A stretch of DNA of 64,000 nt from Siphonodentalium dalli (lineage: Eukaryota; Mollusca; Scaphopoda; Gadilida; Siphonodentaliidae). Below the pieces are notes generated by a model, which made no database searches, was not told where the DNA came from, and saw nothing but the letters and a program-made list of their open reading frames with translations. The stretch spans positions 90,187,980-90,251,979 of the forward strand of contig CP136063.1 in assembly GCA_032622095.1 (NCBI GenBank), in the 5' to 3' direction. Shown here in pieces: positions 6,690 to 63,765 of the stretch (the first letter of the stretch is position 1; each line of letters begins with the position of its first letter). A program made the position numbers and the translations under genes.

Positions 6690-7503
6690 CTTAATTCTTC
6701 CTGAAATTTTGCGAAAACCCTGTGCCAATGCATTCTCTTATATGTAGCCTCACATTCATAACAGAATGTATTGGCCTAACAATATTTACCTTGACTTTGT
6801 AAGCCAGTGGATTTTCTTACCGTATATATGTGAGTCTTTCCACAGGGAGCCTCACATTCATAACAGAATGTATTGGCCTAACAATATTTACCTCGACTTT
6901 GTAAGCCAGTGCATTCTCTTATATATGTGAGTCTCCCACAGGAAGCCTCACATTCATAACAGAATGTATTGGCCTAACAATATTTACCTTGACTTTGTAA
7001 GCCAGTGCATTCTCTTATATATGTGAGTCTCCCACAGGGAGCCTCACATTCATAACAGAATGTATTGGCCTAACAATATTTACCTTGACTTTGTAAGCCA
7101 GTGCATTCTCTTATATATGCGAGTCTCCCACAGGGAGCCTCACATTCATAACAGAATGTATTGGCCTAACAATATTTACCTTGACTTTGTAAGCCAGTGC
7201 ATTCTCTTATATATGCGAGTCTCCCACAGGGAGCCTCACATTCATAACAGAATGTATTGGCCTAACAATATTTACCTTTACTTTGTAAGCCAGTGCATTC
7301 TCTTATATATGTGAGTCTCCCACAGGGAGCCTCACATTCATAACAGAATGTATTGGCCTAACAATATTTACCTTGACTTTGAAAGCCAGTGTATTCTCTT
7401 ATATATCCAAGGCTCCCTATGGGAGACTCGCATATATAAGATAATGCACTGCACAGGATCTTTAATGCTGCACCAGCGCAACTCCCATCATGAAAGGTTT
7501 AAT
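6690..7503. mobile_element. TTAA-type foldback MITE expanded by tandem repeats, copy 4
   Basis: The left part (TTCCTGAAATTTTGCGAAAACC) and right part (GCACCAGCGCAACTCCCATCATGAAAGG) are the usual ends of this family, but the core has been amplified into a 96-bp tandem array. Confidence 0.7.
6746..7400 (+). repeat. 96-bp tandem array, about seven units
   Basis: Each unit starts CATTCATAACAGAATGTATT and contains CCTTGACTTTGTAAGCCAGTG and TGTGAGTCTCCCACAGGGAG. Starts recur every 96 bp (7046, 7142, 7238, 7334 and earlier). Because 96 is a multiple of three, a frame stays open across it and yields a 32-residue repeat; this is not evidence of a gene. Confidence 0.9.
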
Positions 7504-25000: not shown

Positions 25001-28000
25001 GCAAAAAATATAACATTGAACATTAGACCCTGAGCAAATATTGCGATATTTTAATTCATTGCAACTCTGGAATCAGATATTGAATAACATTGATTGCCTG
25101 GAAAAGGTATATTGCATTATCTTAACATTATACTATTTTATAACTTCACATACTGCTTTCTCTTTGTTTTAATAATCATATAAGCGCTATAAACATTTCA
25201 GAGTGAAGACAGCTCTAGATTTTTTCCCCAAGGTCTACAGGGATAATTTTTATGTCACTGCTGATAAGAATATTCAAACCGGCACAAACAAAACAATCTC
25301 AATTTATAAAAAAAATATAAGAAACAAAACATGTATTTTCAGTGCTATATCAACAAATTTGTTGGAAATCTTCAGCGTAGGTATTATTTGAGATAGCCCT
25401 TGGGGTTCTAATGAGCCAAGTCCATTTAAATACAGTAATGCCCTAAATAATCGACTCCTTAACCACAGCAGAATTATGGGTAACTTTTCAGGATTTAGTC
25501 GTAAATATGGCTTGTTGCCATTCATCTCACTGAGAGCCAACAAGCCATATTTCTGACTGTTGATGGTCAGAGAATGTCAAAACAACTTAGAAGCAAATTA
25601 TTTTAGGTATTGTGATGAAGTAGGCCCTTACTTACTTACACTTACTTACCTCATGATGTTTTATTTCTGATGCTACAGATGTCAGATTTGCTTCGACCGA
25701 CTTGCTCATTGCATCTACAGTATTCTTGAGATTCATAAACTGAAATAAATAAATAGCAGAGATATAAGCCATCAATACGGCAATGAGACAAATATGACTT
25801 AAACTTCAAGCTACGTTTAACTTTTGGCCATGCTGTATTTGATATGGGGACCAAGCCAATGCATAACAAACATATTTACCTGTAAAATCAGCTGGGTATC
25901 TAAACATTTATCCTTCTACATATTCTTTATTGTTTGATCGTTACATGCTCTTTATTGCTCGATGCGTAGGATGATGCAAATGTTATTATTATAATAACAT
26001 TTGAGATTAAAAATTTAATCTTTTCATCTAAATATCATAAAATAGTGATCTTGCCTTTTTAATCTCAACAGTTATTTAACCTATAGATCCAGTCCGGTGA
26101 TTACTTGTAATCAAGCCTGAGTTTATGTGCCTGCAATTTGCAGAATGAGGTCCCCAGAGGGTGAATTTAGTGACGCTATCCCGCATAGCGGGCTAGCATC
26201 TCCAAATTCACCATCTGGGGACCTCAATCTGCATGGCCTCATCTGCTATGGGGGACAGACTCAGATTGAAGTTCCCAAATGGTGCACATTGTGATGTACA
26301 CCCAATGGGAACCTCGATTATGCAATGTGTCGCCTGCCAATTTGGGGATATAGAGAAACTAAACTAAAAATGAAATAGAATCTATGTGAAGAAGTTTCTA
26401 TAGAAATTTGATAAAAAAGCAACTTTCCAGAGAAGATGAGGCCTAATCAGAATGAGGTCCCCAGAGGGTGAATTTAGTGATGCTAGCCAACTATGTGGGA
26501 TAGCGTCACTAAATTCACCCTATGGGGAACTCATTCTGCAAATGACAGGCACACTAAACTCAGACCTGATCTTGCCTGAATATTTGGAGCTATATTAAAG
26601 AACTAAGTTTCAATATATTTCAATTATTCTATTCATGTGTTTATATTCAAGCTTCGAAATAAAAATAAATTCTCTGAGAAGCCAATTAAATATATTTGAG
26701 TAGGGAGGGTTTTTTGGGGGTAGGTAGGGAGAGGGGAAACAATTTTTTTTTTAATTTTGGACTCAATAATCTGCACAGCATTACCTGCTGCTGTAACTGC
26801 ATCCCATCTTTCAGCGATTGGTGTGGAGAGACTGTGGAGGACTGCTGCGCCTGGTGAATGAGAAAGGATAAAATTAATAGTCTGGCAAAAATATATGGAA
26901 TAGGAGATATAGAGCTCTTTCCATCAACGTATCACATTATTATAATCAATAAATTTGAAAAATGATCAAGGAAATATGGGTTGATACAAAAATCGGACTT
27001 GGCACTGAAAGGGTTAATCTAAGGATTGTGAGGTACCTGTATATGTTCCACTTTGAGACTCAGCTCCTCTATTTGGTCTGCTTTGGTCTGAAAATCTTGA
27101 ATCTTAGCATCAATCTCAGTGTGCCATCCTTTAATGGCGTCGACATCACTACCAATACTAGCAACACTCTGAAAACAGATAAAGAAATGAGAAAAATCGG
27201 CATGAGATGTCTGCCAATAACCCCTGACCATTAACCCTGCATTAAAGATCCTGTGCCAGTGCATTCTCTTATATATGTGGGAGCCTCACATATGCAGTAA
27301 AACCTCTCCAAACCGAACACCTTTCGGTCCAGCCATTCTGTTCGGATTAGGGAGGTGTTTTGTTTATAAAAAATAGCACTACAATTTTCTGTATTGAATG
27401 CACTGGCTTACAAGGTGAAATATAAGTTTGAAATAGTGAAATAAGCACATAATATGTCTCTAAAGGCACCATGAGCTAGAACATAAATTTAATAACAGGC
27501 TGTAAAACAACTATGAAAGTGTCAATGACACTGTAGCAGTGTCAATGACACTGCAGCTCAACTTGGAAAGCGAATAATTTCATGTTTTACAGTCAATGGA
27601 GTGATTAGGATTGTGGAAAGATGAAAGGCCTAGTTATGCATAGAGCAATAAAATCCAAGATGCATGTTTTTTTTGCTGAATGACCCCAAAAAGACTCGTT
27701 TCCATTTACATGTCATTGTTAACATCCATCACAAATTTCATGATGATCTGACAAAAGATACAACCTGTAGCCTGTGTCAAAGGATTTAGTCATGTAAAGA
27801 GTAAAATACAAGATGGCTGCTGGCTGCCATAGTTTTTGGCCGAATGACCCCAAAATGACTCGTTCCCATCTACATGTCATTGTTAACATCCATGACAAAA
27901 TTCATGATGATCCGACCAAAGCTAAGACCTGTATCCCGTGCCAAAGGATTTAGTCCTGCAAAGAGTAATATCCAAGATGGCTGCTGGCGGACATGTTTTT

Positions 28001-31000
28001 TGGCCGAAAGACCCCAAAATGACTCGTTCCCATCTACATGTCAACATTAACATTCATGACAAATTTCATGATGATCAGACGAACAGTACGACCTGTAGCC
28101 CCTGCTAATGGATTGAATTTGGAAATCCAAGATGGCACTGGCAGCCATGTTTTTTTGCCGAATGACCCCAAAATGACTCGTTCCCATCCACATGTCAACA
28201 GCTGTGACAAATTTCATAATGATCCGACCAAAGGTAAGACCTGTATCCGTGCCAAAGGATTTAGTCATGCAAAGAGTAAAATCCAAATTGGCTGCTGGCG
28301 GCCATGTTTTTTGCCCGAATGACCCCAAAATGACTCGTTCCAATCTACATGTCAATATTAACATCCATGACAAATTTCATGATGATCAGACGAACAGTAT
28401 GACCTGTAGCCCGTGCTAATGGATTGAATTTTGAAATCCAAGATGGCCGGTGGCAGCCATGTTTTTTTTGCCGAATGACCCCCAAAATGACTCATTCCCA
28501 TCTACATGTCAATGTCAACAGCCATGACAAATTTCATAATGATCCGACCAAAGTTACAACCTGTAGCCCATGCTAAAGGAAATTGTTGACGAATCACGCA
28601 CACACACACGCACGGATGACGGATACCAAGCCATGGCAATAGCTCAAACTTTACAAAGTAAAGTTGAGCTATTCAGAAACACTACGAGTATATTTTTTTT
28701 ATGCCACAATCTTTACAATGCGATGGATAAACACTTTTCATTTCAATTTGTATGGAGAAAGTTTAATCCACTCTGAGAAGTTTATGCCACGATCTTTACA
28801 ATGCGAAGGATAAACACTTTTCCGTTCAAATTGTATGGAAAAAGTTTGATCCACTCTGCGAAGTTTAATCAACAGCAGGCACGTTTAATCAACAGGTGTT
28901 GATTAAATGTAAAATTTAAGCAGATGGCTTTATTTATATAGTAAGATAGGCGATCGTGGTATAAACTGTGAGTGCTCAGGGACTTTTGCCAACTGAAAGA
29001 ATGTAACAAATATTACAGAAAATCCCAACCATTTTGATTGTACTATTTCTGAAAATACAACGTCTAAACTATGCACTATTGTAAACATTTATTCATTTAT
29101 TCTATTAAAGAGACCCAAGACACCCGTAGTGGGTAATGTTAAAAAAATACACAAGTTTGTAAAAACAAACACTAAAATGATCATGGATAAATAAAAAAAC
29201 CTTTTTCTTAAATTAATTTTTCATTGTTCTCCAATAAAGAAATTTTGCATGATGAAACCATTTTTGCATGTGTATAAACAAAACTGTTACAGTGATTTGG
29301 CAACAAACATCGCTAATCATGTAGTAAATTAAAATATTTTAGTCTAAATATGATTTTCAGAATATTTTTCAATGCTTTGACCTTATCCAATGTTTACCAT
29401 CAAGATTTGATAAACTTGGTATCCTATTAGACTAATTGGACTCTAATCGGTATTTCCACTGTAACAGTAATGTTAACCCTTTGAGTGCCAGGTCGATTTT
29501 TGTATCAACCCATATACCCTGTGCCAATGCATTATCTTATATATGAGAGTCGACAATAGGTTTAGGGCCGATGAGATCGGCCCCTGGCACTCAAAGGGTT
29601 AACATAAGAATGGTGTTGACATGCAAAATCTCATTATTGGAGAGTTATTAATAATGAAAACAAGAACAAAGTCAATCTATTTTTTTCATGTACTTGTTGA
29701 TGATAGTTGTTTTACAGACTAATATTTTATTTTGCTTAAACCCACTTCGAAGGCCTTGAGTCCCTTTAATGTGGGATACAAATGGGGGTATACAAATGGC
29801 AATGATTTCGCCAAATTGAGTCCCATCGTAAAATTCATATATAAGAACAAAATTCATGAAAATAGCCACTCTATTCTCTATTCCACATAACTTTTAACAG
29901 AGCTATTGAAAATATTTCAAAGGCAACCAAACTAGTTTTTCCCCATACTCCCTTATGGGATACTATTACCATGTAGAAAGAGATTCCAGTTCTAAATTAT
30001 CAAAAGGATATGGAGACTTGATTGGAAGTTACAAATTGTTTATTGAATTCGATGAGGAAAGTCTCTTCCTGACAAAATTTGCAAAGATATTACAACTACA
30101 ATTCAATGAATGTTTCCTTTATAGATTACGACTTATTAAATAATATGTCCAAATTAAGAACTCATCTGAGAATGTAACGTTTGTTCCATAGCTATTTTCC
30201 TACAACTTTCAAATATATTATATATATATATCTTTATTGTCCTCCCTTCACAGAGAGATATATACAGACAATTTAGGTTAACAAATGTTGGGAGCTGGGC
30301 TGGTGCGTAACTATTTTCCTACAACTTTCAAATATTAACCCTTTCATGATGGGAGCTGAGCTGGTGCAGTATTAAAGATCATGTAAGCCAGTGCGTTCTC
30401 TTATACATGTACAGTAATGCCCTAAGTAATCGACTCCTTAAACACAGCAGAATTATGGGTAACTTTTCAGGATTTAGTCGGAAATATGGCTTGTTGCCAT
30501 TCATCGGAAAGCTCTCAGGGAAAGCTTTCCGATGAATGGCAACAAGCCATATTTCCGACTAAATCCTGAAAAGTTACCCATAATTCTGCTGTGTTTAAGG
30601 AGTTGATTACTTAGGGCATTACTGTATATCTGAGTCTCTCATAGGAAGCCTTGCATATATAAGAGAATGTACTGGCTTACAAGGTCAATGTAAATATTGT
30701 TAGGCCAATGTATTCTCTTATATATGCGAATCACCGTATGAGAGACTCACATATATAACAGAATGCATTGGCACAGGAATTTTGCAAAATTTCAGGAAGC
30801 TCCAGTCAAGGAAGGTTTAAAAATCCCGTAAGCCAGTTCACTCTCTTACATGTGTGAGTCTCCCACATGGAGCCTCACATCTTTAAGTGAATGCACTGGC
30901 ATACATGGTCAAGGTATATATTGTTAGGCCAATGTATTCTCTTATATATGTGAGGCTCCATGTGGGAGACTAGCATATATAAGAGAATGCATCAATAAAT

Positions 31001-34000: not shown

Positions 34001-37000
34001 TGAATCCCAGTCACCCAAGGACTCTCTATACCAAAATGTATGCTAAATATGCCAAATGGTTCAACTAATGTGGGAAAGAATTATGTCTGTAGCCCTGACC
34101 ATATTTGACCCAATTCTGAATCAAATCTGAATCCTTGTCACCCATACCAAATATAAGCTGAATAGGCCTGATGGTTCTTGACATTTTAAGAATTACCATG
34201 GATGGACAAGTTATGTCCCTGGCTCCGCCCTTATTTGTTTTTAACACATCTGTATCCCTGTCACCCAAGGACCTTCCATACCAATTATAAGCTAAATAGC
34301 CCCGATGATTCTTGAGAAGATGTTTTAAGAATTACTATGGATGGAAAGACTTAGGTCCTTTACTATGTCACTTTATTGACCATGTGACCCCCATTTGAAC
34401 AGAACTGAATCCCAGCCACCTAGGGACCATCCTGACAAAATATGTCTCAATTCTTCATTTCTGGTAAGCTAAGAAAAATGCCTCCTTCTTTCTCATCCAG
34501 TTTCCCATATGTAATTGCCTGAGAAACAGGTATTTAGTTTTACTGGCCTAACTGTCAGATTCATCATTCACAATCTGTATCCCTGTCACCCAAGGACCTT
34601 CCATACCAATTATAAGCTAAATAGCCCAGATGATTCTTGAGAAGATGTTTTAAGAATTACTATGGATGGAAAGAGTTAGGTCCCTAATCATGCCACTTTT
34701 TTTACCATGTGACTCCCATTTGAACAGAACTGAATCCCAGCCACCTACATGTAGGGACCATCCTGACAAAATATGTTTCAATTCTTCATTGCAGGTAAGA
34801 TAAGAAAAATGCCTCCTTTTTTCTCATCCAGAGTTTCGCATATGTAATTGCCTGAGAAACGGGTATTTAGTTTTACTGGCCTAACTGTCAGATTCATCAT
34901 TCACAAGCCCTTGGGAGTTATTATAAACCATGGGTCATTTATATACAAACAGGCAGAGCATTTTAGGGTATTAATCAAACTAGCTGTCATTCCAATCAGA
35001 TTTTGTTAACACTGCCATTTCATTCATTACTTTATAAGCAATGTGACTTCTATATGGTGTATATCTGTGATTGCAGACAGCTTCCTGGTACTGTATCTCA
35101 TAGAGCTCTGAGTATCTACTAGCTGTTTGCATGTTCTTGATTTTAGACTGATTTAAAGCAAATTTGGTTGAGTCACCCTGGTGGATATTATAATGGTGTT
35201 ATTTTTTTTTTCAAATTGAGCAGGAAATTAATCTCAATTAAAATAAAAAAAATGAATTTGAAAAATATTTTTTTATTTTTTTTTTTTCAAATCAAACATT
35301 TGTTGTTTTGTTTTGTTTTTGTTTCTGTTTTGTTTTGTTTTTGGTTAAATTGAACAAGGAGTTCAATTTAAATTTTTTTTAAAGAGTTGTGTCCCTGGCT
35401 CCGCCCCTATTTGACTCAGTGACCCCATTTGAACAAATCTGAACCCCAGTCACCCAAAGACCCTTCAAACCAAATATAAGCTAAATCGGCCCAATGGTTC
35501 TTGAGAAGAAATCATTCTAAGAATTACTATGGATGAATAGAGTTATGGCCCTGCTTTCGCAACTATTTGAGCTAGTGACCTCATTTGAACAAATCTGAAT
35601 GTTAGTCACCTAGGGAACATCCATACCAAATATGAACCCATTTGGTCCTATGGATTGGAAGAAGATGTTTAAAGAATTGTTGACGGATGGACGGAAGGAC
35701 GGACGGATGGATGGACGGACGGACGACGGACGAGGAGTGATGACTATAGCTCCACCGGAGACTTCGTCTCAGGTGAGCTAAAAACACTGAATCTTAAATC
35801 CTGAGGCCACAATTACCAAGAAGGATGCAACTATGATGTGAGGAAATATACATTCAGCCAAAGAGTGGTCACTACTTGGAACAATCTACCAAACGAAGTG
35901 GTACAGTGTATATGCTGCATAATGCTGAAAACATAAACCAATTCAATACCAGACTGGACAGCCACTGGAATAATCAGGAGGTTAAGCATGACTATCAAAG
36001 GAATTGGTGACGGACCCACAACCACAAGTCCCCAAAACAAAAATTGACCACACCAATTTGTTCTGGGGACCTGTGCCCACAACCATATAAAGAAAATTTT
36101 ACTAGAGATGCGGCCAAATACAGTGAAATAACACAATACGAAGTGGAAAGGCAAAGTAAGGTACAGTAATGCCCTAAATAATCGACTCCTTAACCACAGC
36201 AGAATTATGGGTAACTTTTCATGATTTAGTCGAAATATGGCTTGTTACCATTCATCGGAAAGATTTCCGACTAAATCATGAAAAGTTACCCATAATCCTG
36301 CTGTGGTTAAGGAGTCGATTATTTAGGACATTACTGTACTAGTATGTATGATGGTGGTGTTTATATAGCTAATCCTCATTGTTTTTACCCTGCTGGACAA
36401 AACAAAGCGTTGCCACGGCGGCCGAAATGCAACTACACCGCAGCTCCACCGGCTAACTACAGTTGGGCCACGGTTTACTTGCCATTTGGCATGGTGTAGT
36501 TGCCGCAGTGTACTTTCATTAAACTGAAAAAAGATGATACAAACCAGAAATCTAACCACGGTGTACATGTCATTTGGCCGCGAGGGTAGTTGCCGTTCGG
36601 CCGCAGTGAACTTGCCGTTCGGCCGCAGTGTACTTGCCGTTCGACCGCGGTGCTCAACTGCAGTTACAAACTCTGACACCGCGGCCGAACAGCAAATACA
36701 CCGCGGTGCCAATGGATGATGAAGCAACCCTTTTACAAAGTTGTTTTTTGTTTGTTTTATGATACACTACAATAGAGAGGCGAAAATCTATTTATACAAG
36801 ACAGTCAATGACTGTGGAGACGCTCACCTACTGTAAAGACTGAGAAGAAAGGGACTTTGAAGACTAACACAGTCAGTACTTGTCAAAATAAGTTAAGACA
36901 AGTAGTTCTAAACATGGACATATACATGTAGCTCGGGATTTGCTGATGAGCCGGGCTCTTCACCTTGAAATTTCAAAGTGCACACTACTGTCAAATCTCC

Positions 37001-58347: not shown

Positions 58348-58920
58348 CCTTTTTGATGGCCTAAAATCAACATTTATTCTCGTTTGTTTATCCAGCTTGA
58401 TCAGCTAAACCGGCTACGCGGTTAGAAAGTGTTGATACTCTTCATGAATAGGATAAAACGTCAAAATACTCCATCGCAATTATAAGAGAAAATCAATAGC
58501 GGAAGTATTACGATAACACGAAAATAGGAAAAGTTGCCAGGTGTAGATGATTCTGATTGGACAGGTGCGCGAAATCAAAAGTTGAGACAGGAACGGGAAC
58601 ACATTTCTAGGAGATAAATCAAAAGTTGTACAAAGGAACCGGACGATCACGATCGACAGATGTTTAACCCATCCACTGTCGATAGTAAATTACTATATTC
58701 GGAATCATAATTTGAGTTTTGATGTTGAATTATTAGAGTATACTGTTATGTACTATTATAGAACAATGTACATAATAACACAAATTATTGGAATTTATGG
58801 GTCAAATAATATGGAGGCAACACATATACAACTTAAGAGAATGCACCGACACAGGATATGTAATGCTGTACCAGCGCAGCTTTGGATTAAATGTGAAAAG
58901 GTGACCTGGACATATAATAC
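58348..58920. other. upstream region of the EFCAB14-like gene
   Basis: Holds the presumptive 5' UTR and promoter. No TATA box at a convincing position and no other start. A TTAA-family fragment (GAGAATGCACCGACACAGG, GTACCAGCGCAGC) lies at 58838-58880, so the transposon cluster begins within about 500 bp of the start codon. Confidence 0.45.
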
Positions 58921-59828
58921 GGTATCCAGACGATTGGGAACCTTGGACGATTGGGACCTTAAGTTAGACGATTGGGACCTCGGGACGATTGGACGATTGG
59001 GACCTTGAGTCAGGACGATTGGGACATTGAGTCAGGACTATTGGGACCTTGTGTAATTCCTTATTCAAGTGATTATATTTATTGTGTATATACTTTATAT
59101 TCATAATGCAGACCATTCCTATTAAATAATTATTACATTATATAGATAGATAGATAGATAGATAATTTTTTAATGGCTAAAAGATGCAAAATTTGCAGAC
59201 ATATGAGCATAAGCATATATACAAAAGAGTAACACAGAGTGTGACATTCATATAGTATAAATATAAAAAGTATAGATATATAAATATAACAAGAATGCAG
59301 CTTGACAGTTCTGTAGAGGGACAAGATAGTGAATAAACCTAGCTTAGTAATGACTACAAAATAGATACTCGTACCTTTATATATATACAAACATGAAAAA
59401 TCAACCCGTGCTATATCCCACCCTCCTCCCTCAACAGGACTGTCATGTTGCTTAAGAGATACTAGTAAGAGAACCAACAGCTCTTCGCCACCTGCATATA
59501 CACACTGCTGCCATGTATGGCCGGCTTTAGACTGGCATGTCCATGACCGAAAGATGGAATCCCTAAATACAGGCAGCAGTGACAATATATGCAGCTGGCC
59601 AAGTACTGTCATCGTACATAGAAAGATAGAGAGGAAAATAGAGTAGTAGAAGAGAAATATACATATGAATATGCTCGTCTGACAAGTCATGCTATCGATT
59701 GCCATCAAGGAGCGCACAGGAAAGCAAGCCAAAGCTTGCTTATTTCCACTGTGGTCCTTAATGGTAACCGACCACATGACTGACCAGGCCACAGCACAAG
59801 TTCTCATAAGGTCGTACGGTATTATTAA

Positions 59829-60306
59829 AGGTACTCAATCCGAACAGGGTCCCCATCTCAATAGATTCCAACAACAACAATCCGACCAGAGGGTCCCATA
59901 TTACTATTTCTTTGGCTTTGGGGGTAAAAAATATTTGATTCGAGTCGAGGAACCCATCAAACAAAGCTCAGAGTTATTAGATATTGATTTTTGAAATTTG
60001 TTATTTGCTCGAGATGAGTACTAATAATTGCCATCAATTTTGTAACCTGCTCGAGATGTGTACACCAAAACACTATTCAAACAGACAAGGATGGATAACT
60101 CTAAAATCAAGTGGTAATAATAACGCAATTTTGACTGTCTTCTGGGCCAGAAAGTATTCCCGATAATGAAAAATAATAGATTTCTAAAATCCATATCTAA
60201 CAAATCTGAGCTTTGATGGGTGACTTCCTCGACTCGAATCAAATATTTTTGACCCCCGAAGCCATTGAAATAGTAATTGAGAGGAGTTTTATCGGATTGA
60301 GTACCT
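59829..60306. mobile_element. TTAA-flanked MITE, AGGTACTCAATCCGA family, copy 1
   Basis: Inverted ends AGGTACTCAATCCGA and CGGATTGAGTACCT, each bordered by TTAA (59825-59828 and 60307-60310), indicating a TTAA-duplicating transposon (piggyBac or Kolobok type). It sits within the LINE 3' UTR, so it is younger than the LINE. Related copies are at 8376-8819 and 788-1113. Confidence 0.72.
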
Positions 60307-60327
60307 TTAATAGCATGATTCACACCA

Positions 60328-61258
60328 TTAATAATATACAAAGTCAGATTCCTCAGTACCTAAAATTTTATCGAATAATTCCTGTTTTATTAGGTGATTC
60401 CATGTAGCCAAGTTGCAGTTAGGTTCAATATATTTTACATAATTATTCCACAACGTGATTCCTGTGTAGAAAAAGCTATTGTAACCAAATACCCTAACAT
60501 GAGGCACAGATAATCTAAAGATTCCAGACCGGAGATTATATTTACAATGAGTGTTCGAAAATTGGAATCCATCTCTTAGGTAGGTAGGAGCTTTCCCATC
60601 TGTTATATTTTTCATGATAGTCAGCTTTCTTTGGGAAACTCTGGATTCAACCGGAAGCCATTTAATGGTTTTAAACTCTTCATAACCTATATGTGAAAAT
60701 CTATCCAAGCTCAGAACAAACCGGATTAATATGTTTTGAAATATTTGTAGTTTATTTTTGGTAGTTGTACTCAAAGAGCTATACCAAATAGAGGATGCAT
60801 AATCGAGGTGGCATTGAATTAATGAGTTAGCAAGTAGTTTCTTTGTGAAAGGGGTTAGAAAGTCAGCCTTTCTATATAAAAATTTGAGACGAGCAGTTAC
60901 TTTATTTAGTACCTGTTTGGCCATTTGTTCCCCAGTGAGACTTTCATCGAGACAGGCACCCAGATATTTCACCTCCTTGACGGACTGAATATTGATACCG
61001 TTGCAGCAGATTACAAGTTCGGGACATTTATTAATTTTGCGTTTGGAGCCAAATAAGATGGATTCTGTTTTGCCTAAATGAAGTGACAATTTGTTGTCGA
61101 CTAGCCAGTGGCTTAGTGATGTTAATTCAGTACTCAGTTGATCTGCTATCACTTTTGAATCATTTCCCGAGACTATCAAAGCTGAGTCATCTGCGTACAG
61201 TAGTAACTAGCAATTTGCGGCTGCAACGGCATCATTCACGTATAATAAAAACAGAAGA
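60328..61258 (-). pseudogene. non-LTR retrotransposon reverse transcriptase, C-terminal part, broken
   Basis: An open frame of 283 codons (from 61179) covers the end of the RT palm, thumb and C-terminal region of a jockey/CR1/L2-type polymerase. Just upstream, the same frame reads PLLFLLYVNDAV, then a TAG, then LLLYADDSA, so the catalytic YADD is present but a stop lies about seven residues before it. Other typical blocks are HLGKTESILFGSKRK, VKYLGACLDESL, IQCHLDYASSIWY and HIGYEEFKTIKWLPV. Everything N-terminal (endonuclease, fingers) is missing, so it is 5'-truncated and inactive. Confidence 0.88.
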
Positions 61259-61669
61259 GGTCAAGCAGTGGGACAGCTATGACTTAAAAGAAATTTCGTC
61301 GTCATCACTACTCAAAGAAATTTCCAAACTATATGCACCAGTTCGACAGAACGAGAAAGACAACGACCAATAATTGAAGATGTTACAGTTAAATGCATGC
61401 TCGTTAATCAAATATCGTTATTATTGATTTTCATTAAATAATTATTATATTTATTAATTCCATTACACAAATAAAATTTGATTTTAAACTAATATACTTG
61501 TACTATGAAAAAGCAATTACGCAAGGTCCCAATCGTCCTGACTCAAGGTCCCAATCGTCCTGACTCAAGGTCCCAATCATCCAAGGTCCCAATCGTCCGA
61601 GGTCCCAATCGTCCAAGGTCCCAATCGTCCGAGGTCCAAATCGTCCAAGGTCCCAATCGTCTGACAATC

Positions 61670-62685
61670 TATAATACTTGGGTTAATAGAATCCAATTTA
61701 AGTCTAAAATGATAATGTATCAAATTCTACCAACAACACAGCCACCACACTGCTGATCCATTAATATCAATTATATAGCAGAGCTGTCAACTAATCACTG
61801 GTTTTGTTTATGCTGAATCTTGGCATCTGTATTAATTTACTATTAAACCTATGAAATGTATAATGACCTCAGACCATCTGTAGAGTGATATACTCAGATG
61901 ATGTAGTCTACTGTTAATAGAAATCCAGGTGTATTGTTGACACATTTTTTTTGGCATAAGAGAATCAGAAAATGATACAGCCATTGTAATAGCTAAGTAA
62001 TCCAAAGGCATGGGATTAAATTGGTGAATTAATTGGGTTTAATATCGCTCCAAACAAATTTACCAGTACATAACACAACATTTTGGAATGATTTAAACCA
62101 AATTTGGTGTGGTGACTCGGGGTACCCTGACTGAGTTATAAATGGTGTTAGTTTATAAAATTTTGTTAACTTTAAAAAAAAAATTATATTGAACAAGGAG
62201 CTCAATCTAAAACTGAATTAAAAAAAAGAAGTGCAATTGATGGTGTCCTATAACATTATGGACTGATGATATGGAAATAACCTACCAATTCAGTGGTGTA
62301 AGTTTGTAACAATAATTATGCTTCAGCCCAATTAATATGAATCAAGCTGAATTGGGATTGAGAGCAATTAGATTGTGCTTCAGTGCAATTGGATTGAGCT
62401 TCAATGCAATTGAATTGTGCTTCAGCACAATTAAATTGCGCTGAAACTCAACTATTAATATATGTGAATTTGGCCTCCCATATGAATCGGGGTACCCTGA
62501 GGGATATTATAATGGCGTTAGATTTTCAAAATGTATTTAAAAGCAAATTAACTTCATTTAAATTGATGTGAAACACTCTGGTAGGGTGATCAAATAGAAA
62601 TGGAGAACAATCATCCTCAGAGTAGTTATTTTTACAAATATTATGATTCAAATTGACAACACACATCCACACTCTTATATATTAA
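61670..62685. other. 5' flank, AT-rich, no gene
   Basis: A loose series of AATTGNATTGNGCTTCAGNNC units at 62330-62450 and paired GGGGTACCCTGA blocks at 62119 and 62490 suggest an eroded repeat. No coding frame. Confidence 0.45.
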
Positions 62686-62689
62686 CAAG

Positions 62690-63765
62690 CAGTCGCAGAC
62701 GACGGTATCCCCCACCAAATTTTGCAGTTGGGGAAGTGCATTCTCAATAATGTTTGCGTTCTCAGTATGTGCTAAACAAGAGGTGGGATTTTGTCAAAAA
62801 GCCTGGCTTGCGAACTCATTTTAGGTACTGACATTTGTGGAAATTAGCCATGTGACATCGTCCATTTGCACCAAAATTAATAAACAAAATCCAATAACTC
62901 TGCTGAAAATATCGGCCTGACCTGGTTTGCGAACTCGTTCTAGATACTGGTCATGTGGACTCATATACCAAAAATCTTTGAAATCCGTTGACATTTGTAG
63001 AAATGAGCCCTGTGACATCGTCCATTTGCACACGAAAAAATAAACAAAGTCCAATAACTCTGCTGAAAATATCCGGCCGGACCTGGTTTGCGAACTCGTT
63101 CTAGATACTGGTCATGTGAACTCATATACCAAAAATCTTTGAAATCCGTTGACATTTGTGGAAATGAGCCCTGTGACGTCGTCCATTTGCACACAAAAAA
63201 ATAAACAAAGTCCAATAAGTCCACCTAAAATATCCGGCCGGACCTGGTTTGCGAACTCGTTCTAGATACTGGTCAATTGAACTCATATACCAAATATCTT
63301 TGAAATCCGTTGAGATTTGTGTAAATGAGCCCTGTGACGTCGTCTATTTGCTATTTGGTAAATTTGACAAAAATAATAAACAAAGTCCAATAACTCCGGT
63401 AAAAATATCCTGCCGGACCTGGCTTGCGAACACTTTCTAGGTAATGGTCAGGTGAACTCATATACCAAATATCTTTGAAATCCGTTGAGATTTGTGGAAA
63501 TGAGCCCTGTGACGTCGTCTATTTGCTATTTGGTAAATTCGACAAAAATAATAAACAAAGTCCAATAACTCCGGTAAAATTATCCGGCCGGACCTGGCTT
63601 GCGAACTCATACTAGGTAATGGTCAGGTGAACTCATATACCACAAATCTTTGAGATCCATTGACATTTGTTCAAGTTATGACTCTTAAAATTCAGGATGG
63701 ACGGACGGACAGAACCTATTCCTATATCCCCCCCGCAAATTTTCAATTTGGCGGGGGATAATTAT
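62690..63765 (+). repeat. 160-177-bp tandem repeat flanked by inverted TATCCCCC / GGGGGATA ends
   Basis: Units carry GACCTGGTTTGCGAACTCGT, CTAGATACTGGTCATGTGAA, CCAAAAATCTTTGAAATCCG and GAGCCCTGTGACRTCGTCCA. Starts near 62941, 63102, 63262, 63438 and 63613 give spacings of about 160, 160, 176 and 175 bp; the longer units contain an extra TGCTATTTGGTAAATT stretch. The outer parts GGTATCCCCCACCAAATTTT and AATTTTCAATTTGGCGGGGG form inverted borders. Confidence 0.85.

Follow-up and report, generated by a model that had tools for sequence, protein, structure and literature searches.

Why some transposons carry minisatellite arrays as their ends is an old question, dating from the FB elements, and it is raised again by a locus in the window, the whole stretch of 64,000 nucleotides of Siphonodentalium dalli DNA analysed here. 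Two tandem arrays face each other at this locus, and a word-based scan of the whole window found facing arrays at practically this one site. Our results indicate that the locus is very probably a decayed, non-autonomous DNA transposon of the Mutator superfamily (MULE) with foldback-type ends.

The whole foldback MULE copy lies at 58921-61669 on the plus strand and is 2749 bp long. Its outermost letters are GGTATCCAGACG... at 58921 and ...CGTCTGACAATC at 61669, and it is flanked on both sides by the exact 8-bp duplication TATAATAC (58913-58920 and 61670-61677), which was generated by the insertion. The element starts with the left tip GGTATCCA (58921-58928, plus strand) followed by GACGATTGGGACC, and it ends with the mirror of GATTGTCA followed by GACGATTGGGACC, the right tip itself reading TGACAATC (reverse complement GATTGTCA; 61662-61669, minus strand). 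The two tips are asymmetric, with GGTATC at the left end and GATTGT at the right end, and each is common to the ends of its side genome-wide. The preliminary description had correctly placed an element here, but its limits, 58928-61662, fell 7 bases short at each end, because the asymmetric tip of each side and the duplication TATAATAC were overlooked. The units of the left array (58929-59054, plus strand) are spaced 17, 21 or 22 bp apart and include one truncated unit, and the reversed units of the right array (61522-61661, minus strand) are spaced 16 and 22 bp apart. In both arrays the outer units are 16-17 bp long, the inner ones are 22-bp GAGTCAG units, and GTAATT closes the array. The same units were present at both ends in opposite orientation, and the claim that their variants follow one order from outside to inside was borne out as well. 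The two arms align along about 130 bp with a score of 182, compared with a maximum of 25 among 500 shuffles. Other repeats were observed elsewhere in the window. At 36590-36652 a 22-bp unit, TTGCCGTTCGGCCGCAGTGAAC, is present in three copies; no inverted partner for it was found within the window, and the same unit adjoins a MULE fragment at another locus (L067). Longer tandem arrays occupy 6746-7406 (period 96 bp), 27663-28580 (164 bp) and 62829-63670 (175 bp).

In the 2.2-Gb genome, the outermost unit was found 657 times in forward and 678 times in reverse orientation at two mismatches or fewer, while the reversed control gave no hit. In the portion of the genome where the lists of both exact ends are complete, 36 of the 47 exact right ends had a facing exact left end inside 8 kb, where 0.08 pairs were expected by chance. 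The paired ends span 574-4811 bp, and no right-right pair occurred among the 47 exact right ends. We examined 24 copies, namely the window copy and 23 that were fetched, each with one left and one right end in flanking sequence that differs from copy to copy. An exact 8-bp duplication was present in 17 of them, a length within the 8-11 bp of the MULE superfamily; two more had one with a single mismatch, five had none, and no duplication of any length other than 8 bp was seen among the 24. The genome search suggested by the preliminary description thus returned numerous inverted pairs around a common interior. Since the ends are paired and bordered by 8-bp duplications, the outcome that it had named as counting against a transposon, arrays lying independently and never in pairs, did not occur. 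Apart from the better-preserved copies, most are internal deletion derivatives of a single interior. One copy (L039) contains a stretch at element coordinates 476-942 that is absent from the others. Both strands of this stretch have open frames (138-147 codons), and it is possibly captured sequence.

At one mismatch, 228 left and 140 right ends were counted in the genome. At least part of the excess of left ends is due to two further repeats that carry this end, one a tandem array on C3 and the other palindromic. The array (G000:C3:69410346-69451464, L056) has a period of mostly 2484 bp and a family left end in each unit. Large palindromic repeats with AAAACGCAGAACG words (L054, L055 and also L020-L028) contain the left end at a constant place in their interior, and L054 also contains an apparent further foldback element with GACGTTTCGGCT units. 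The divergent minus-plus pairs at L020-L028 were considered as inside-out elements and rejected, as they are this palindromic repeat.

The proteins encoded inside the pairs gave Pfam matches above the cut-off to the MULE, FLYWCH and PHD domains only. A copy of 3474 bp (L051; duplication CTTGAAAC) has predicted exons that encode a FLYWCH and a MULE transposase domain, and its MULE match between the paired ends (PF10551, 1.3e-13) is above the cut-off. FLYWCH matches (PF04500) also exceeded it, at 3.3e-5 in L051, 1.4e-5 in L077 and 9.2e-6 in L100, and a PHD finger (PF00628) was found upstream in L048 (2.1e-5) and L058 (1.2e-5). The translations show DGTF, DFE and NNDVEGWH stretches, as expected for a MULE catalytic core, and L058 has an uninterrupted MULE exon with arrays to either side. 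In L077 a single open frame of 332 codons takes in both FLYWCH and the beginning of the MULE region. In L100 FLYWCH shares its frame with a stretch that by eye resembles the end of a PHD finger. These shared frames support a single protein. Judged from these predictions, the better-preserved copies carry exons of one PHD, FLYWCH and MULE transposase gene. The short residual frame in the window, VKQWDSYDLKEISS (61262-61373, plus strand), which had been suspected to belong to the element's own protein, matches ...IFKLWDSYDSKEISSSLLLKEISKLYAPVRQNERSSDQ of L051 and is the remnant of the host transposase C-terminus with its stop.

Two remnants of the host interior are left in the window, both on the plus strand: 59055-59139, with blastn matches to four other copies (L045, L088, L089 and L096), and 61261-61521, which is 86-91% identical to other copies. 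Between them lies a 5'-truncated LINE on the minus strand (59140-61260, limits approximate), with an ATAG run at its 3' end (59142-59164) and a reverse-transcriptase fragment that includes an LLLYADD box (60331-61206, minus strand; a weak RVT_1 match, under the Pfam cut-off). Since the window copy is missing the host interior that its relatives have between the two remnants, the LINE's own duplication is unreadable. Within the LINE sits a palindromic MITE of 478 bp (59829-60306), with TTAA at 59825-59828 and 60307-60310. The nearest host copies are about 82-91% identical to the window, the LINE is 96-99% identical to its siblings (40 of 40 scored matches for each LINE half, the window itself excepted), and the multi-copy MITE is 97-98% identical to its other copies. 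The LINE halves to either side of the MITE are separated by 504 nt in the window, but by 22-28 nt, mostly 22, in at least seven sibling LINEs. The usual difference of 482 equals the 478-bp MITE plus one TTAA duplication, so the sibling LINEs have an empty MITE site. The three generations of insertion proposed for this locus were therefore found, with host copies about 10-15% apart, LINEs 1-4% apart and empty MITE sites in the siblings, and the identity levels together with the empty sites establish the order host, LINE, MITE. The LINE, and later the MITE, would have entered a copy that was already dead.

Among 365 units in the 24 copies, positions 1-14 form a core, GACGATTGGGACCT, conserved at 97-100%, while positions 15-16 are conserved at 73-88%. 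The unit spacing was 16 bp in 215 cases, 22 bp in 54, 21 bp in 23 and 17 bp in 20. An arm holds 1-11 units, typically 5-10, and in the general plan an 8-nt tip is followed by units of 16 bp, of which 14 bp form the core. The left and right arms each have a unit order and pattern of their own that is kept across copies, so the arms are inherited as separate ends and are not constantly homogenised. The linker differences mostly reflect two inherited unit types. As the family is young, part of the core conservation reflects recent shared ancestry and not selection.

Searching with the transposase revealed other MULE families, a few of which were compared with the window's family (A); the end positions of families C, D and E were placed by eye from their duplications. 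Family C (L097-L100), whose MULE domain is 46-59% identical to that of A, has GACGTTTCGTACC units, the tips GGCTTCTA and GGGTACAG, and the 8-bp duplications GACATAAT, TTACGATT, TTAAATCT and GAAAAATA. Twenty of its copies are identical across 148 bp and scattered over contigs (e.g., G000:C9:134768157), so this family was probably active recently and may still be moving. In family D (L086, 43%) the units read GAAGTCGGCCCC, the arms are 98.8% complementary and the duplication is ATATGCAT. Family E (L084, L080 and L085, 40-47%) has GACGTTTCGGCACC units and, in L084, an inferred duplication with one mismatch. The GCTAACTGGGACC units of L077 (70%) were read at one end, and L073 (45%) has a 21-22-bp array at just one of its sides. 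Wherever the ends were readable (families A, C, D and E, and L077), the array opens with a unit that starts at position 9 from the tip. The MULE domains of A, C, D and E are 37-59% identical to each other, and all four families have arrays on both arms with spacings of about 15-17 bp. Decayed MULE copies at L062, L067 and L072 occur together with a 41-bp repeat (ACTCATACTGAGACCTCGCCTCAGA...) that is present about 10-15 times.

The element could be as described and its arrays still be by-products. In that case a short repeat at the end would have been enlarged by slippage, and the additional units would contribute nothing to transposition. The wide variation in unit number between copies fits this explanation, and the arms of the nematode element Tm1 vary in unit number too. 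However, families A, C, D and E keep their two-arm arrays and the register of the first unit at such low MULE identity, and the left and right arms hold their own unit order across copies. We therefore consider by-product arrays unlikely, though not negligibly so. The repeated word is most likely the binding site of the transposase, with the tip setting the cut. The transposase would bind the repeated cores, and the position of the first core would direct cleavage to the tip, 8 nt away. The enzyme would also move deletion derivatives in trans by cut-and-paste, and slippage or unequal exchange would change the number of units over time.

The preliminary description had likened the element to both FB and Galileo of Drosophila. 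FB elements are moved by a MULE-type enzyme and are grouped with the Mutator elements. Compared by description only, their inverted ends are likewise built from tandem repeats, with unit lengths and sequences unlike those found here. Galileo is a foldback element of the P superfamily with a P-type transposase. Although Galileo also has long, repeat-bearing inverted ends, a P-type, Galileo-like mover is very improbable and was ruled out by the transposase domains, since MULE and FLYWCH lie inside the pairs and no protein inside the pairs matched a P-type or THAP domain in Pfam. In its enzyme, the element thus resembles FB and not Galileo.

Even weaker is the idea that two independent minisatellites, or one inverted satellite, mimic transposon ends: the left end does recur in the 2484-bp-period array on C3 near 69.4 Mb and inside another palindromic repeat, but the far-above-chance pairing, the copy-specific flanks and the exact 8-bp duplications rule this out. 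A hAT-type element is equally hard to credit, for although hAT elements typically make 8-bp duplications and the ends as first delimited open with CAG, the real tips lie outside CAG and the transposase is a MULE.

The published systems most similar to this MULE include foldback elements of nematodes and mosquitoes, and the discussion in PMC3169594 groups some foldback elements with Mutator. As treated in the cited parts of that paper, Tm1 is an element of root-knot nematodes (Meloidogyne) in the Phantom subclass of Mutator. Like the window family, it has short asymmetric tips, a FLYWCH and MULE transposase, mainly non-autonomous derivatives, and inverted arms of tandem units (13-15 bp) in variable number; its published ends, with motifs A, B and C joined, have GACGATT 8 nt from the tip. 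It differs in its 9-bp duplications, its unit (CGATTCAGTATCCGC), its histone-hairpin derivatives and the absence of a reported PHD finger in those parts (PMC3169594). In Aedes aegypti, according to the relevant sections of PMC5225508, short subterminal tandem repeats occur in 10 of the 12 MULE families with long ends, and 13 of 14 MULE transposases contain FLYWCH. Muta1, which transposes in yeast and is classed as a type 2 foldback element, has 12-bp units with 3-4-bp spacers. Compared by description and not by end sequences, Muta1 and Muta5 resemble the window family in their 8-9-bp duplications, FLYWCH, and a terminal motif with nine subterminal repeat copies at a period of about 15-16 bp; unlike here, the terminal motif of Muta1 is a 10-bp imperfect palindrome, and those sections mention no PHD finger (PMC5225508). 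Rehavkus shares the PHD-finger transposase and a minisatellite near an end, but it has 9-bp instead of 8-bp duplications, its minisatellite is reported before the 3' end only, and FLYWCH is not listed for it in the pertinent part of the survey (Dupeyron et al. 2019, PMC6446971). That part of the 2019 survey assigns PHD to Rehavkus, FLYWCH to Phantom and minisatellites to both, and it contains no MULE group with PHD and FLYWCH together (PMC6446971).

The window element has FLYWCH, inverted arms of 12-16-bp tandem units and short asymmetric tips outside the arrays, as do foldback elements of the Phantom/Tm1/Muta type. Since Tm1 and the mosquito Muta elements show the same anatomy, its kind is already known; judged by domains and end structure, the element represents a new family of this type, which nematodes and mosquitoes also have. 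What is new is the family itself and the presence, side by side, of families with different words in one fixed register, and the combination of PHD and FLYWCH in one transposase appears to be new relative to the cited parts of the literature. We tentatively suggest that foldback MULEs across phyla may share one end plan, with 8-nt tips that differ between the ends, then an array near GACGNTT..G..CC from position 9, the word changing with the transposase. If so, the repeated unit would be the binding site of the transposase, and a single genome would hold several natural pairs of enzyme and word. With at least four MULE families that have different transposases and array words in the same register, the binding-site idea becomes directly testable by swaps.
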